In this document: piece after piece, positions 23,786 to 34,323 of the stretch | How the letters are laid out: each line of letters begins with the position of its first letter | Position numbering within the stretch: position 1 is the stretch's first letter | Assembly: GCA_947629465.1 (NCBI GenBank) | Contig: CANRDZ010000005.1 | Location: 1 to 34,495, forward strand | From: an uncultured Bacilli bacterium | Lineage (GTDB): Bacteria; Bacillota_I; Bacilli_A; RF39; UBA660 | Reading direction: 5' to 3' | Length of the DNA: 34,495 bases | Translations under genes and position numbers: made by a program | The notes under the pieces: model-generated | Told to the model about the DNA's origin: nothing | Databases searched by the model: none | Seen by the model: only the letters and a program-made list of their open reading frames with translations

Positions 23786-25309
23786 TTATTCTTTACTTTT
23801 TTTCTTTTTAATTTTATCATCTTCAAAAATATCATAAAATTCTTTTGTCTCTTCTTCTTTATTTACTATTTCTTTTATTTCATTAATATCTTCTTTTATT
23901 ATACTTTCATTTATTTCTTCTTCAATTTTAGCTTTTTTTTGCTTATTCTTCTTTTTATTTTTTTTAGTTTCAGGTTTAATTTCTTCTTTTTTACTTTCTA
24001 ATTCTTTTTTTAATTCATTATTCTTTTTTATAGTTTTTCTCTTGCTAGAATTTAAATTAATTAAACAAATAATAGCTAAAAGTAAACCTATACCAAAGGC
24101 TACTATAACATAAAAATATGTTTGATTTAAATCTTCTAAAGATTCTATAATACTTTGATCATAATAAGCAAATGTCTTATTAACAGAATCATAATTATAA
24201 AAATCCTTTTCACCATTTAAAACATTTATACCATAAACTATATAATTTTGTGAATCTTCACGTGCTTTAAAAACTGTATAAGTATTTCCATCTATTTCTT
24301 CTTCATATTTTGTCAAACCTTTTAATTCATCATCATAATCTAAAACAATAATTTTTAAACTAGTTCCTATAGTTTCTGTATATTTTTTATAATTACCATT
24401 ATCATATATAAAATTTAAAACAGTACCATCATCTTTTTTTAATCCAACTAAAGTATAATCCAATTTTTCATTATAACAAGCCGGTATCTTTAAACCATTA
24501 ATCTCAACTTCACTTTCATTATATAATTCTGGACAACTATAATTACTGCGAAGTTTTATAACTGTATAATTTAAATTATTAATTGTTACATTAATAGGAT
24601 TTTCATCAATAACATTTACTAAAATTGTATAAGTTTTTTCACTACCATTTTCCGCTCTTACAACGACATTAACTGTATTAATTCCTTCCGTTACTTCTAT
24701 AGTACCATCACCAGATACATGAGATTTACTATCACTTGGAGTAGCATTTACTTTAATACTATTAGTACCTTCTGGAACATTAATAGAATAATTTAAAGTA
24801 TCTTTATTAAATACAGGATCTAAAGTGTATCCTTCAATACTTAAACTTTTTAAATTATTATCTTTAGAATAACTAGCCTCTAATTCTTCTTGAGTTATAA
24901 TTTTAATTGTTTTAGTAGATTGGCTAACAGTCATTTCATTCATATCATTATCATAAACTAAAAGACTTCCAATTGATAATTTTGATGATCCAGTTTTTAA
25001 AGTTTTAAATTTAAATGTATAAGTTTTACTTTTAACACCATCTACACCAGAAGCATAACCAACCATATAATTACCAGAACTTTCAGCTGTAGATGAAGTT
25101 AATTGTAAATATTTTTTATCATAATTAAGTTGCATTTCCCAACTACCAATTGGTGTATTACTAGATAATTTAACTGTTACTGTAACACTATTATTAACGA
25201 CAATTTGATTAGAAGATGAAATAGAAACACTAGCGCTTGCAGCATATACTAAATTAGGTAATAAAACTAAATTTAATATTGTTAATAACAAAATCGTAAA
25301 TTTTTTCAT
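23786..25309 (-). CDS. Membrane-anchored cohesin-domain surface protein
   Basis: This 507-residue protein has a signal peptide (1-24), a cohesin-like beta sandwich at about 25-137 (ASVSISSSNQIVVNNSVTV, GSWEMQLNYDKKYLQL), and a cadherin-like beta-sandwich domain at about 148-234. A Tyr-rich region with one Cys pair (259, 278) follows, then a membrane segment at 397-417 and a cytoplasmic Lys/Glu-rich tail of ~90 residues. Cohesins bind dockerins. The gene lies 11 bases downstream of a dockerin-bearing glucosaminidase on the same strand and is very probably co-transcribed. It likely tethers that enzyme to the cell. SD AAAGGAG. Confidence 0.85.
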   Translation of the reverse strand: MKKFTILLLTILNLVLLPNLVYAASASVSISSSNQIVVNNSVTVTVKLSSNTPIGSWEMQLNYDKKYLQLTSSTAESSGNYMVGYASGVDGVKSKTYTFKFKTLKTGSSKLSIGSLLVYDNDMNEMTVSQSTKTIKIITQEELEASYSKDNNLKSLSIEGYTLDPVFNKDTLNYSINVPEGTNSIKVNATPSDSKSHVSGDGTIEVTEGINTVNVVVRAENGSEKTYTILVNVIDENPINVTINNLNYTVIKLRSNYSCPELYNESEVEINGLKIPACYNEKLDYTLVGLKKDDGTVLNFIYDNGNYKKYTETIGTSLKIIVLDYDDELKGLTKYEEEIDGNTYTVFKAREDSQNYIVYGINVLNGEKDFYNYDSVNKTFAYYDQSIIESLEDLNQTYFYVIVAFGIGLLLAIICLINLNSSKRKTIKKNNELKKELESKKEEIKPETKKNKKKNKQKKAKIEEEINESIIKEDINEIKEIVNKEEETKEFYDIFEDDKIKKKKSKE

Positions 25310-25320
25310 ATCTTACTCCT

Positions 25321-27063
25321 TTACTGAACTATTGTATAAGTTCCCAAAATATTTTTTTGAATTTGTAATAAATCTAAAGCATTTATTTTTCCATCACCTG
25401 AAGTGTCTCCAGCATGAAAATATTCATTATTTAATGTGTATGTTTTTAAAATATTTTTTTGAACTTGTAATAAATCTAAAGCATTTATTTTTCCATCTCC
25501 TGAAGTATCACCTTTAATTAAAACAACTAAAGTTTCACTTTTTTCTTTATTACTAACTGTTACTTTAAAACCAGTACCAATTAAACCATCTGTTACAACA
25601 TTATCATTACTATCTTTAATAATAACACTATTAGCACCAGAAATACTTTCTATAGTATTTTTAACTGTACTTACTGAAGTATTAGGATTAATACCGGCAA
25701 TTTGATTTGTTTGATATTTATAACCACTACTAACTATTATTGTATTAATATCTAATGTAGTTTTAATATCATCATCAGGCATCGGAACTGCACCACTATT
25801 TTGATTAAAATCACTTTTATCCATATTATTATAAACAGGAATATGAAAAATAAAATCGCTATCTAAAATATTCATATTTTTATAAGATTTATAAGTTGTT
25901 TTTGCTTCACTAGAAGGAGCAGCAATATTAGTCATATATTGATGACCATATAATCTACTACTTTCAGTGGGAACAACATTAAATTTTTGAAGATAACCAC
26001 TATACTGACCAACAGAAATATAAGATGAAGCTATTCCACTAGCCCCTCCATATATAGCATTATACAAACTATCCCATTTTTTAGCATAAGCATATTCTAA
26101 TCCACAAAGTGTTGTTCCTTTAGAAGTGGCACAACTATCAGTAACTCCAAAATTATAAAAGTTATAATATCCTAAATATTTACCACCTTCACCATCATAT
26201 ACCCCACTATAAAGATTATAAAGTGAATTACTATTACCAAGCTCTTGTAAAATTCGACTTGATACAAAAATAGGACTTATATTTGCAGCCAGTGAAGCTG
26301 TATTAATTATTTCTCCTAAATTATTTCCAATCCCCACATGATAAGTATAGAATTGAGCATTTTTAATAATATTATTTATTGCATCGACATATTTATCTTT
26401 TAAAGTATCACTATATTTTAAATATTCAAATTGAAAAATAGTATTTTCTGAAAACCAATTCCTAGGATCCATATAATAAGCTACTGCTTTAGAAGATGCT
26501 GGATACCAAATACTAGTATAAGCATTTTTACAAGTACTATCTATATTTGATTTATCATTACTAGCAATATAACTTTTTCCACAAGCACTTTCACTTGTAA
26601 CGGCACTACTCCAATCAAGACCTGTAAATATTGGCTTAAATTCCCAATTAGGATGATTTATTTTTAAAGCACATAAACCTTGCCAATAACTTTCTGGAAA
26701 GCCTAAATCTTTTAATTGCTGTTCACAAGCATTTTTCGCTTCAACATCAATTTTTTCTTCACTTACTTCAACAAATTCACTACAAACATATCCAATAGAT
26801 GAAGATTCATAATATATCTGATACCACCCATTAGAACATCCCCCTTCATCCTTAACCAAAGTATTATTAACTAACGTATAAACTGAATCTTCAACTAAAG
26901 TTTTAATTCTTTCATAATTAGTACCAGGACCTTTTCTTAAACTAACCCCAGAGTCAATTATTTTACCTTTATAAGTATCAGCATAACAAATATTCATATT
27001 AAATATGAATATAAGTATTAAAAAAAACATAAATAATAAATAGAATTTTTTAATGTTTTTCAT
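25321..27063 (-). CDS. Secreted N-acetylglucosaminidase with SH3b and dockerin domains
   Basis: This 580-residue protein has a signal peptide (about 1-28), a bacterial SH3 domain at about 30-98 (VSLRKGPGTNYERI), and a GH73-type glucosaminidase region at about 110-400. The likely catalytic Glu is in SSRILQELGNSNS (Glu274), and the YNFYNFGV block is typical. A spacer domain follows, then a type I dockerin in the last ~62 residues: two GDTSGDGKINALDLLQ calcium-loop repeats 34 residues apart. It probably cuts peptidoglycan glycan strands outside the cell. The ATG at 27063 follows GAAGGTAGG; an upstream in-frame ATG at 27087 has no SD. It is the first gene of a unit with the cohesin protein. Confidence 0.92.
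   Translation of the reverse strand: MKNIKKFYLLFMFFLILIFIFNMNICYADTYKGKIIDSGVSLRKGPGTNYERIKTLVEDSVYTLVNNTLVKDEGGCSNGWYQIYYESSSIGYVCSEFVEVSEEKIDVEAKNACEQQLKDLGFPESYWQGLCALKINHPNWEFKPIFTGLDWSSAVTSESACGKSYIASNDKSNIDSTCKNAYTSIWYPASSKAVAYYMDPRNWFSENTIFQFEYLKYSDTLKDKYVDAINNIIKNAQFYTYHVGIGNNLGEIINTASLAANISPIFVSSRILQELGNSNSLYNLYSGVYDGEGGKYLGYYNFYNFGVTDSCATSKGTTLCGLEYAYAKKWDSLYNAIYGGASGIASSYISVGQYSGYLQKFNVVPTESSRLYGHQYMTNIAAPSSEAKTTYKSYKNMNILDSDFIFHIPVYNNMDKSDFNQNSGAVPMPDDDIKTTLDINTIIVSSGYKYQTNQIAGINPNTSVSTVKNTIESISGANSVIIKDSNDNVVTDGLIGTGFKVTVSNKEKSETLVVLIKGDTSGDGKINALDLLQVQKNILKTYTLNNEYFHAGDTSGDGKINALDLLQIQKNILGTYTIVQ
25346..25514 (-). repeat. Direct repeat encoding the two dockerin halves
   Basis: Two near-identical copies of about 66 bp start at 25346 and 25448, a period of 102 bp (34 codons). 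They differ at only a few positions, including third codon bases. This is the usual internal duplication of dockerins, here little diverged. Confidence 0.85.
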
Positions 27064-27150
27064 TATATGCCTACCTTCATATAACATTTTATCATATTAT
27101 ACAATAAAACTCTCTAAATAGATAATTACTTTGACATTTTTTTTCAATTA

Positions 27151-29800: not shown

Positions 29801-31481
29801 TTACTTCTCAACTATAAAAGGTTTACTAACTGACCCATCACCATCACCAACTTTAGAACTGGAAGAAAGGTAGAACGTAGGCCTAACGAGATACCTATTC
29901 ACCTCGTCTTCTAATTTGACATGCTCCGTCGACACCGTGAGTCCCGCATAAACAAGTCCCCACTTTTTGTATCCGGAACTAGTCAAAATCCACTCATCTC
30001 CGGGACTGCGTTTACCGCAATTCCATATGGCCAACCAGTTACGGGAGCAAGCGTTTTGGGAACAATCAGCATATTTCCCATCTTTGTAATCGGTAGAATA
30101 GGCAAAATATATATCATGAAGGTACAATAGACCGACTTTAGACGACACCTTTTGTCTTTCATCCCACACGCCTCTCAAGGGGATACTAGAATTTTCGGGA
30201 CAACTCATATCGGTCTCAATTTGACCTGTCTCAACTCTATATATTTCATCCGCCGGCCTTGAAAGACCGAGAGCAACGACGGTGCTCGCACTATCACCTT
30301 GAATTTCGCCAAACCACCAAAGATGGTTAGTGATCATTTCATACCAAACACTTGACGTCGACATATATGGATAATTAACACTGTTAATGAATATATTCGT
30401 ATCTCCATCACTTCCGGAAGAAGAACCATCACTCAATCCATTCAGTCTCCTGAAAAGTTCAGTTCTATCCCAAAATCCACCGGAATCTCCAAGGTCTGAT
30501 CTGAATATAAGATGGTTCATAGAAAAGGCATTAACCGTTCCCTCTAATATCTCTGTATTTTTTATTACTTTTATCTCGCCTTCTGGTGTTATTCCTATTA
30601 TTCGATACATATATTCACTCGTTTCTGTACAATCTGTTTTAGCATTATTATATCCAAAACATATGAAATTATCTACATCTTCTTCTGTTCCAACAAACCT
30701 GTACATATCTCCTAGTATTACATCACTTAATCCTCTAGGTTTTTGTGCTAATATATATTTACCGGCATTAGAAACACCACTTTCAACTGTCTCTTCTGGA
30801 TTATTTACTACTATACTTAAAATACTTTTAAAATCTTTCCCTTGTGTTTCATTCCCTGCTGAATAATCTATCCATATATATTCTTCATATTCTATTGTTG
30901 TCTTTCCACCTATTTTACTTTTTTCTATTACTCTTGATTCTTTTTCATATCCTGAATATTTCTTATTTAACTCTTTTTCTAATAATGTCTTTGTTTCACT
31001 TTCTTTTAATTCTTTTATTGAACTTATATTTACGGAACTTATTATTTCTTCCTTTGTTCCATTATTTACCTTTTTATCTATTTTACCTTTTATTAAATTT
31101 GTCCCTATATATTCACTACTACTATTTCTTAATGCCGTTATTATTAAACTATAATCTATTTCTTCTTCACATGTATTTCTTAATGTTACTTTTATCGGCT
31201 TTATATTTTCTTTTGCAAAGTTATCTTCTATTGGATAGTTATATGTTAATCCTACTTCTCCTTCATCAGTTATTGTTACTTCCATACATGCTGTCTTTCC
31301 ACCTATTAATGTCGTTACACTATTTCCACTTCCCAAAACATTTATATAGGCATAACTGACTCCTATCCCCATTATAGCTACTACCATTATTATTAGTGCT
31401 ATATACAATTTTACTTTCTTCTTGGGGGATTTTTCATTTTCTAATAACCCCCCCCCAGGCGAACATTATTTTGCTTTTCAT
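29801..31481 (-). CDS. Surface protein A, phase-variable through a G9 tract (out of frame as sequenced)
   Basis: The ATG at 31481 follows AAAGAGG at a normal distance. From it, translation reads MKSKIMFAWGGGY and stops, because the G run at 31448-31456 is nine long. With eight G the frame continues for 559 codons: MKSKIMFAWGGLLENEKSPKK, a membrane segment, a beta-rich domain (~240 residues), then a C-terminal DUF6273-like domain (GDMYRFVG, VDNFICFG, YMYRIIGI, RPTFYLSSS). As sequenced, only a TTG at 31408 could start the long frame, and it has no SD. The C-terminal half is GC-rich compared with all neighbours. The protein is probably exposed at the surface; its ligand is unknown. Confidence 0.75.
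31448..31456 (-). repeat. Homopolymeric G9 tract in start region of gene A
   Basis: Nine consecutive C on the plus strand (G on the coding strand) lie 25 bases after the start codon of gene A. In a genome this AT-rich such a run is very unlikely by chance. Eight G would restore the frame. Confidence 0.85.
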
Positions 31482-31620: not shown

Positions 31621-34264
31621 TTAAGCTTGTACTATATATGGATCTGATACTGTTCCCGAACCAACTAATTTAACAGAACTTGAAAGATAGAAAACTGGTC
31701 TTACAGCTTTGTAACCAACTAAACCATCAGAATTTCCAATATTTCCTGTTGAATTAATCCATAAAGCTAGACTATTTCCATTACTATAAAGTCCACTCCA
31801 AGTCATTACTCTTTCACTTTTTTCTTCCGCATTTGTTGCTTTACCATTATTGTTTATATGTAACCAACTATTTTTACAACCAGCACTGCTTGAAAAACAA
31901 TTCGTACTATCACTTCCTTGATAAGAATAATAATAGTCATGTAAATACATTAATCCTATTTTGGAAGGTACAATATCCGTTTGCGAATTCCAATAATAAG
32001 TAGACCAAGCGCTACCATTATAATAATAAGCAGGAGCTTTTCCAGTTTCAATCAAAAGCAAAGTAGACGCGGGAGTAGATGGACCAAGCGCACCAGTTTT
32101 ACCATTAGCATTTACTCCAATATCACCATATATCCAATTATGCTCATTAATCTTGTTATACCAGCTATTACCTTTAGATAGATAATTTACATTACTTGTT
32201 GTACTGTCAACAAATAAATCAGTATATTTTGTATCATTAATTTCTTTACCATTTAATCTCTTAAATATATCGCTATTAGGCCATGTACAGTTTTTATTTT
32301 CACAACTTGCCTTATCCATTTTATCTTCCCATTGATAACTTTTTATACTACCACTATTTTCTTGAATTGAAGTGTTTTTTATTAACTTCATTTCGCCAGA
32401 TGAAGTTATACCAATTATTCTGTACATATAGTCACTTGTTAAATCGCATTTTTTTATACCCCCTTTTCCAAAGCATATGAAGTTATCTACTACTCCATTA
32501 CATGCTGTTCCAGAAGCGGTTCCAGCATCGACGCTTGAATTGCAAGATCCAACAAAGCGGTACATATCACCTATTACTTTACTACTTAATCCTTTTGGAT
32601 TTTTAGTAAGTAAATCTTTAGGTGATATTGTAGTCTTGTAATCATTTCCTTGAACTACTGATGACGCCCTACCTAAAGTATCATAAACATAAGCCTCTAT
32701 GGTATAACTTGTACCTGGAGATAATCCTGTTACTGTACATCTTCCATCTGATGATGCTTTCGTCCAACCACTTGCTCCACTTTTCCTACAATACATCTTA
32801 CTTGTATCTATTCCATTTATATCTGTACCATAAACATCTACTGTAATAGTGTTATCTGTACTTGACATAAACATTATATATGCTGTCGGATTTGTTTTAT
32901 CTACTTTTATTAACGTTGTTGCAATTCCACTACATCTTCCTGATTCATTACATGCTCTTATATATGTATTACTATTTCTATCTATATCATATTCACCTGT
33001 TATATACGTATTTATTCCGGTACTACTATATGCGCTATAATCCGTTTTCCAATCTTCACTTGTACTATCTCTATATTGCCATTTTGATATCTTATTATTT
33101 ACTTCATTTGATGTTAATCTTAATAAAATATCATCTATATTCCATTGACCATTTGTTCCTGATACCCCTAAATGTTCTATCTTATAACTTAATCCACTGG
33201 AACTTCCTATATCAAATCTTACTTGTTTCCATGTTCCACTTGCAGTTATTGGTAAATATAATTTTTTTTCTCCTGCATTTAATGTCCCTTTTACTGAATT
33301 TTCTTCACTATAATATCCACTTGAAGTTGCATAAAATACTTGTACTGGTATACTTTGACTTATTGATGATGATAATTCTATATAAAATCCATTTACTCCA
33401 CTTATACTTCCTATATCATTAAATATTATCATTGGATCTCCATTATTTGTTGTCCATGTTCCATTTTCACCCGCATTACTACTATATCCTTGATAACTAT
33501 TACTTCTACTTCCCCATATATCATATATTTCTACTACACTTGGTGTTGGTGGATTACTTTTATTTAACGTTATTGTATAATTACTACTTCCTATATTATT
33601 GGCTCTATCTTTTAAATAAAGATACATCTTCTTACTTCCTTCGGTATTTTCTAATGCTGGAGTTGTTCTTGTTAAGGCTGTTGATGATGGTGGTGTTCCT
33701 GGTGATGTTATCCATCCACTAGTTACAGTTCCACTGCATCCTGAACTACTATTACTTATACAATAACTTACTACATCGGTTGCACTCCATTTCATACTAT
33801 ATGTTACTGTATTTGTATGCGTATATTTACTTCCATCACTTAATGTTTGTCCACTTTCTGCTGTACCTGTCATACTAAATGATGTTACTGATGGTATTTC
33901 ATCATCTTTATCATAATAAAAATTACAGTATAATGATTTACTACTTACTACTGTTATACTCATATCATCATTTAAGGTTATTGAATTATTTACTGTATTA
34001 CCTTGATAATCTTTGCATACTGATTTTGTTGTATTCAAAAAATATCCTTGCGTTGGAAACGTTGTATCTGTTGTTAAGGTATGATCCCCTTTACCCATAT
34101 TTTGTTCTTTATATATTGCAAATTGTTTATTTAAAGTTTTTTTCTGTCTATGTATCTCTACTTCATTTAAAGTATTATTTCTTATTTTAGTTATTGGTAT
34201 TATTAATAATAGTATTAATAATAACCCCCCCCCATACGAACATTATTTTGCTTTTATTTCTCAT
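31621..34264 (-). CDS. Surface protein B, phase-variable through a G9 tract (out of frame as sequenced)
   Basis: From the ATG at 34264 translation reads MRNKSKIMFVWGGGYY and stops, because the G run at 34225-34233 has nine bases. With eight G the frame stays open for 880 codons. The product then has a membrane segment (GGLLLILLLIIPI), a charged helix, an SVCKDYQGN/LYCNFYYD region, several Ig- or FN3-like domains, a galactose-binding-like middle (GTWKQVRFDIG), and a C-terminal DUF6273-like domain homologous to that of gene A (GDMYRFVG, YMYRIIGI, RPVFYLSSS). Without the shift, an internal ATG at 34098 could only give a form lacking the anchor. It has its own promoter and terminator. The domain calls are by eye. 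Confidence 0.78.
34225..34233 (-). repeat. Homopolymeric G9 tract in start region of gene B
   Basis: Nine consecutive C on the plus strand lie 31 bases after the start codon of gene B, in the same codon context (TGG GGG GGG) as in gene A. Eight G would join the start to the long frame. Confidence 0.85.
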
Positions 34265-34294
34265 AGACTATCTTTCTCTTTCTATCTTAATTAA

Positions 34295-34323
34295 AGTTTA
34301 TTATTTTTTCTTTCCTTTGTCAA
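34295..34323 (-). promoter_or_regulatory. Promoter of gene B
   Basis: On the minus strand a perfect TTGACA (34318-34323), a 17-bp spacer, then TAAACT (34295-34300), 30 bases before the ATG. An AGCTCT/AGAGCT hairpin (34352-34373) lies upstream. Confidence 0.7.

Follow-up and report, generated by a model that had tools for sequence, protein, structure and literature searches.

Genes A and B lie on the minus strand of the window (the whole 34,495-nt stretch of DNA that was analysed, from a contig of an uncultured Bacilli bacterium), and each carries a run of nine G in its 5′ coding part. The features concerned are as follows.

34295..34323, minus strand: promoter-like sequence, TTGACA - 17 nt - TAAACT, alone a weak match
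33885..34323, minus strand: 5′ module comprising promoter, start, tract, membrane segment and the first ~130 codons, 92-99% identical in further copies
34225..34233, minus strand: G9 tract of gene B, the proposed switch, read from the sequence; a T precedes the nine G
34187..34264, minus strand: short ORF of 25 codons plus stop that begins at the promoter-proximal ATG when the tract has nine G (coordinates by arithmetic)
31621..34242, minus strand: long open frame of gene B, 873 codons plus stop; joined to ATG 34264 at eight G (880 aa)
34189..34246, minus strand: hydrophobic segment IMFVWGGLLLILLLIIPIT of the eight-G form, encoded on both sides of the tract
32614..33816, minus strand: middle region, a presumed stalk, with weak fibronectin type III and Ig-like matches below Pfam cut-offs
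31624..32613, minus strand: C-terminal domain, predicted C-type-lectin-like fold, nearest to the N-terminal (DUF6273) domain of the Thomasclavelia ramosa IgA peptidase
31448..31456, minus strand: second G9 tract, in gene A, inside the same 5′ coding motif as that of gene B
29801..31481, minus strand: gene A, about 559 aa at eight G (by arithmetic), with a C-terminal domain 40% identical to that of gene B

The sequence-only reading of this DNA had proposed that a G9 tract switches gene B out of frame, and a homopolymer tract is indeed present at 34225-34233, within the 5′ coding part, where the frame that is read depends on its length. At nine G, translation from ATG 34264 meets a stop after 25 codons, rather than the roughly 16 given by that reading; with one G fewer, as it had claimed, the same ATG is joined to the long frame, yielding 880 codons with the stop at 31621. 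The eight-G form also supplies the membrane segment described as otherwise lacking, through a helix encoded across the tract with a Kyte-Doolittle mean of 2.64; the best 19-residue mean is 0.91 in the nine-G form and 0.48 over the first 63 residues of a product begun at ATG 34098. Nor, at nine G, does any upstream start already share the register of the long frame, which that reading had named as evidence against itself, because a TAA bounds the long frame three codons (TGT TCG TAT) ahead of the first GGG and the earliest ATG, GTG or TTG within it, with no alternative before, is ATG 34098, past the hydrophobic segment. The leader between the promoter-like match and ATG 34264 is AG-rich on the minus strand; matches of the TTGACA-17-TAAACT type number 3 in a 396-bp stretch versus 2.4 in shuffles. 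In gene A, the ATG at 31481 leads to a stop after 15 codons at nine G and joins the long frame at eight.

Full-length protein might also arise from a fixed tract of nine G by programmed recoding, either RNA polymerase slippage with one G dropped or a +1 ribosomal shift, giving a steady full-length minority. An RNA hairpin that can form beside the gene B tract is consistent with this (z −2.81 over 161 nt, 0/200 shuffles as good), but its signal falls to z −1.44 over 81 nt, and z lies below −3 in just two of eight folded tract regions (L260 and L307), with differing shapes. The shift needed would moreover be +1 (or −2) relative to the ATG frame, and because the long frame stands in that register, the common −1 shift at G runs meets a TAA three codons on. 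We regard recoding as improbable. A hairpin after the tract as a general feature was rejected, there being no common one across the eight folded regions.

Predicted product of gene B

Scans of genes A and B against Pfam and NCBIfam gave nothing above cut-off. The C-terminal domain of gene B, to whose family that of gene A also belongs, was modelled (330 aa; pLDDT 90.3, pTM 0.92) from a 68-row alignment, A1, made up of gene B and 67 of 68 other candidates, and the predicted model has a C-type-lectin-like core fold. Its best solved match is 9qa6 at residues 38-304 (Z 14.9, 212 residues, rmsd 3.6, 18% identity; Foldseek E 8e-6); Legionella Lcl, a Bacteroides fimbrial protein, C-type lectins and Mtd proteins score Z 3-6, which is little proof alone, and a search of PDB sequences with the domain profile returned no match. 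According to the matched text of the respective reports, the part of 9qa6 in question is DUF6273 (PMC12402451), and the N-terminal domain of the T. ramosa IgA peptidase is C-type-lectin-like and dispensable for cleavage (PMC12237041). Gene B is like that peptidase in the fold of its N-terminal DUF6273 domain, but unlike it in carrying the domain at the C-terminus, with no peptidase domain recognised. The Pfam model of DUF6273 (PF19789) matches 14 of the 68 family members at E ≤ 1 (best 1.4e-4), gene B not among them. Phage receptor-binding proteins are also reported to combine DUF6273 domains with Ig domains (PMC10743442).

We read the gene B product as a putative anchored, stalked binding protein. 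From the predicted membrane helix and binding-type domain we infer that it would be exposed and displayed at the cell surface and bind there.

Between paralogs, dN/dS was 0.28-0.40 in the stalk (6/6 comparisons) and 0.22-0.48 in the C-terminal domain (10/10 comparisons, with dS near or above 1), ratios that indicate purifying selection on the long frame outside the 5′ module; within the module they ranged from 0 to 0.88 on few changes (8 comparisons). Elsewhere in the window, a 588-aa protein with SH3-like and dockerin type I domains (25321-27087) adjoins a cadherin-like protein at 23786-25309.

Module copies and tracts in the window's genome

Gene B DNA has 67 matches in its own genome, in which the 5′ module corresponds to query positions 78-516. 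Fourteen other contigs match the start region, and in 11 of them the match begins exactly at query 78, the −35 box (34323), and runs at 92-99% identity into the coding part until copies diverge or contigs end; four contigs (C32, C66, C59 and C52) end within the module, before the tract. Judged by these matches, the genome holds about 15 copies of the module, which is linked to predicted C-type-lectin-like surface genes. Contig breaks within the module leave most of the 5′ copies here unjoined to their 3′ domains, but genes A and B are complete. The tractless paralogs C10 and C16 (near 24.7 kb) begin with ATG, Lys and a hydrophobic helix followed by the same FAIYKEQNMGKGD segment, and the eight-G form of gene B therefore restores the family's normal layout. 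The 5′ motif had no exact match in viral_contigs, and near matches were found in 2 of the 37 other genomes of the genus (G003 and G029).

Many copies with very similar 5′ modules and divergent 3′ domains, alongside tractless C10 and C16 with starts of their own, would suit a silent archive in which G9 copies are permanently off and their binding domains are expressed after recombining into another site. An archive, however, needs neither starts nor tracts, and the module copies at the tract retain both an ATG and a ribosome-binding-like leader; nor does a stop lie inside any of the 22 listed of the 25 own-genome matches to the C-terminal domain. We consider such an archive likewise improbable.

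The genome comprises 1.14 Mb in 78 contigs, at 86.8% completeness; outside the tract-bearing surface genes the DNA is about 22% G+C. The window contains 6 G7 windows versus 0.18 expected, a number reached in 0/100 shuffles, and the assembly as a whole has 12 runs of eight or more G, each of them nine long (24 overlapping G8 windows), against 0.014 and 0.17 runs of nine or more expected on the two strands (a first-order expectation scaled from the window's composition), exceeding chance. Eleven of the 12, gene A included, occupy one 5′ coding motif, ATGTTCGYNT-G9. The remaining tract (C16:3174) lies between TTGCGT (−35-like) and TATAAT (−10), ahead of the gene for a 235-aa protein that by eye has a hydrophobic segment at its N-terminus, and this promoter spacer is a second classical position for such a tract. 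Nine of the 11 coding copies could be judged from the sequence after the tract, and all nine are OFF (C4, C30 and C37 through core identity, their rows being merged with other copies).

As it stands, the uniform nine in the window's own genome speaks against switching, and it is what recoding at a fixed length would predict. Several of the G9 copies nevertheless probably reflect a single consensus into which the assembly collapsed them: gene B and C4, C13, C30, C37 and C63 have identical 234-280 bp cores around the tract, which exceed usual short-read k-mers, so that one consensus may fill all six. In a metagenome-type draft the same collapse, or base-calling error, could hide a true tract of eight G in genes that are simply on, and one relative (G352) has artefact-like runs of G50 and G23. 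Those runs, however, stand at contig ends, whereas the window's two tracts are internal; gene A, C16, C29, C50 and C42, whose more different flanks make them more independent, also read nine, as do tracts in G003, G029 and G001. An error of this kind is the explanation to which we give least credence.

Tract length in relatives and the proposed switch

Set beside the 12 G9 tracts of the window's genome, homologous tracts vary in length in G003, G446 and G435, supporting the proposal of phase variation. Two near-identical gene A-type 5′ ends in G003, both carrying the same C-terminal domain family, have eight G in frame (C97, open for at least 510 codons, to the locus edge) and nine G out of frame (C3). 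Three near-identical 5′ ends in G446, which belongs to another genus, have nine G in frame and ten and ten out, while eight loci of G435 with one promoter motif around the run have lengths of 9, 9, 10, 11, 11, 13, 14 and 14. That related tracts read G8, G9 and G10 argues against recoding at a fixed length, and a silent archive or assembly error fits the comparative data less well than phase variation. Among the 104 homologous pairs drawn from every tract fetched (alignments of at least 120 nt upstream and 60 nt downstream), 19 differ in length and 85 are equal, own-genome pairs included; the pairs share loci and are not independent, one of them being two tracts of a single locus, L286.

Coding tracts out of frame as assembled, and open at eight G, were also read in G029 (nine G), G001 (L260, nine), G352 (L401, nine) and G010 (L068, ten). 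Further coding tracts, tallied where the downstream frame has at least 100 codons, are out of frame in a ToxN-like gene (L121), two of three L399 genes (G477) and L230 (a G7 tract on a named contig), and in frame in the third L399 gene, L433 (G441), L070 and L109, although the runs of L070 and L109 may be ordinary glycine codons. This reading of frames skipped L043-L055 and merged rows with identical flanks.

Some of these tracts lie in genes of other kinds. At L121 (G001:C2:58530), G9 interrupts the ToxN-like gene, whose downstream piece matches Pfam ToxN_toxin (E 8e-21), and this type III toxin-antitoxin gene may be phase variable too; such genes are of a kind known from phage defence. The three adjacent L399 genes begin M(T)KLLD, and each has a G8 tract after 5-7 codons that leaves two of them out of frame and one in frame; they have no Pfam match, and our guess would be phage tail genes. 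The out-of-frame G9 of L401 precedes a protein with DUF285 (E 1.8e-42) and leucine-rich repeats, and surface families besides the lectin-like one therefore carry the tract. In G006, L307 (G10) and L353 (G6) have a short leader ORF with a G run before a surface gene; at the eight-G register the leader would pass through a CAACAACC/GGTGGTGTTG hairpin and its TGA would overlap the gene's ATG (by eye for L353), which suggests switching by translational coupling.

Taken together, these observations make it likely that the G9 tract of gene B is a contingency locus, mostly OFF, that varies in phase by slipped-strand mispairing. DNA polymerase slippage in the G run would alter tract length, and on that length would depend whether ribosomes that begin at ATG 34264, the only good start, make the 880-aa surface protein. 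Eight G (or eleven) would be ON, giving an N-terminal membrane anchor through the helix encoded across the tract, then a stalk, presumed to be Ig/fn3-like, and at the C-terminus a C-type-lectin-like binding domain; the assembled length of nine G would be OFF and give a 25-residue peptide. Most module copies would be OFF at any one time and, with ~15 copies and diverse downstream domains, each cell would show its own subset, an arrangement whose advantage might lie in evading immunity or phage, or in changing attachment.

Homopolymer contingency loci are known mostly from pathogens, and Neisseria has poly-G tracts in promoters and coding parts. From the excerpts matched, Campylobacter poly-G contingency genes and Neisseria simple-repeat phase variation (PMC4965091, PMC5084427, PMC5320596) resemble the present case in that homopolymer tracts change the frame or promoter spacing of surface genes; here, unlike there, the phylum and proteins are other ones, and the tract sits in DNA of ~22% G+C within a duplicated 5′ module. 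Listeria inlA has a 5′ poly(A) tract, and the homopolymer survey of Orsi et al. finds tracts at 5′ ends (PMC2831843): as in inlA, the gene B tract lies near the 5′ end and leads to an early stop and a very short peptide, but it is poly-G, whereas those are poly(A) or poly(T).

Among the literature matches listed, Bifidobacterium breve is the one gut Gram-positive precedent. In the excerpt of that study, poly-G switching was measured in strain UCC2003 at bbr_0113 and bbr_1889 (sortase-dependent pili), signal peptide and remainder are encoded by two ORFs that fuse when one G is lost, and G tracts in promoter spacers are mentioned too (PMC9187656). As far as that excerpt shows, the likeness to gene B extends to a 5′ coding G tract that parts the N-terminal signal or anchor from the rest of a gut commensal surface protein, to an annotated state that is out of frame, and to loss of one G, there the main productive event. 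It does not extend to the sortase and LPXTG pilins of the two B. breve loci, the gene B long frame having no LPXTG motif of the kind expected in a sortase-dependent pilus cluster; to the many-copy module, C-type-lectin-like proteins and N-terminal membrane anchor of an uncultured Bacilli lineage; or to the evidence, switching having been measured in B. breve and being predicted from sequence for gene B. The open-licence literature matches listed contained nothing on poly-G phase variation in the lineage studied here. If the proposal is true, this uncultured gut lineage possesses poly-G switches in large number, open to testing in public gut reads, and what such assemblies annotate as gene fragments can be genes that are switched off rather than decaying; the shared 5′ module and the spread over an uncultured lineage add to the interest.

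Spread of the domain and tracts in the lineage

Of 38 genomes of the genus, 36 contain matches to the C-terminal domain; the window's genome has 25, and the highest number in a single genome is 61. Runs of eight or more G occur in 34/37 genus genomes versus 15/23 genomes from other families of the class, the latter mostly with few tracts each (richer are G046, with 33 windows, G053, with 20, and G057, with 11). Across the family, G8 windows are present in 84 of 117 genomes, with ten or more in 45 and one to three in 26. The G50 and G23 runs of G352 (L409 and L413) resemble two-colour sequencing artefacts and, lying at contig ends, inflate its G-run counts.

Many of these tracts sit in promoters. 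Since a set of 237 tracts (64 set aside as not promoter-like, 13 of them the background loci L043-L055) was biased by its promoter-pattern scan, we used an unbiased recount of sister-genome tracts from a plain G8 search, in which 51 of 91 unique tracts lie, by a strict rule, between a −35-like and a −10-like box (G8 31, G9 20). The GTDB-220 promoter matches listed include 96 clean runs, with 3, 5, 67, 20 and 1 at lengths of 6 to 10 and spacers mostly of 15 (42) or 16 (48), after 35 of at least 131 matches whose run fell outside the strict form were set aside. Among the same listed matches, 69 of 80 records are named 'uncultured Bacilli bacterium isolate Lapin-...', Lapin being read as rabbit, from which we infer that the window's genome also came from a mammalian gut. 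A class-wide search with a promoter pattern matched 2 of 395 genomes, in a sample that holds just 5 genomes of the genus and with a pattern narrow enough to miss the tract-rich G001 and G023.

The broader proposition, that throughout this family of uncultured small-genome gut Bacilli poly-G tracts are a main regulator of a large C-type-lectin-like surface repertoire, would have the tracts act not only in promoter spacers but also in 5′ coding modules that duplication has spread and in one or more toxin-antitoxin genes of the phage-defence type, with OFF as the default and each cell showing its own set; we see the case for it as evenly balanced.

Other tracts and surface genes take different forms. 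Five loci in G001 and G010 (L258, L264, L265, L267 and L286) share a conserved purine-rich leader, GGGGCCCCGC-G8/9-AGGG, and in L286 the frame starting MEKKNTMLLTVIAVATLLVAVVGATFA comes after it. Two G8 tracts on one contig (G006:C33) lie in a cytosine-methyltransferase-like frame (L118), whose GSPCQDF motif we take as a sign of that activity, and, by eye, in a resolvase-like gene (L070), perhaps on a mobile element. Several of L352-L366, together with L384 (G006, G029, G003, G060 and G000), are same-family surface genes without a tract, which by eye have gene-specific inverted-repeat, operator-like sequences around the promoter and a divergent gene upstream, whose start in L352 (MNRLKSLRKEKKLSQAEIA) resembles a Cro/C1-type regulator.
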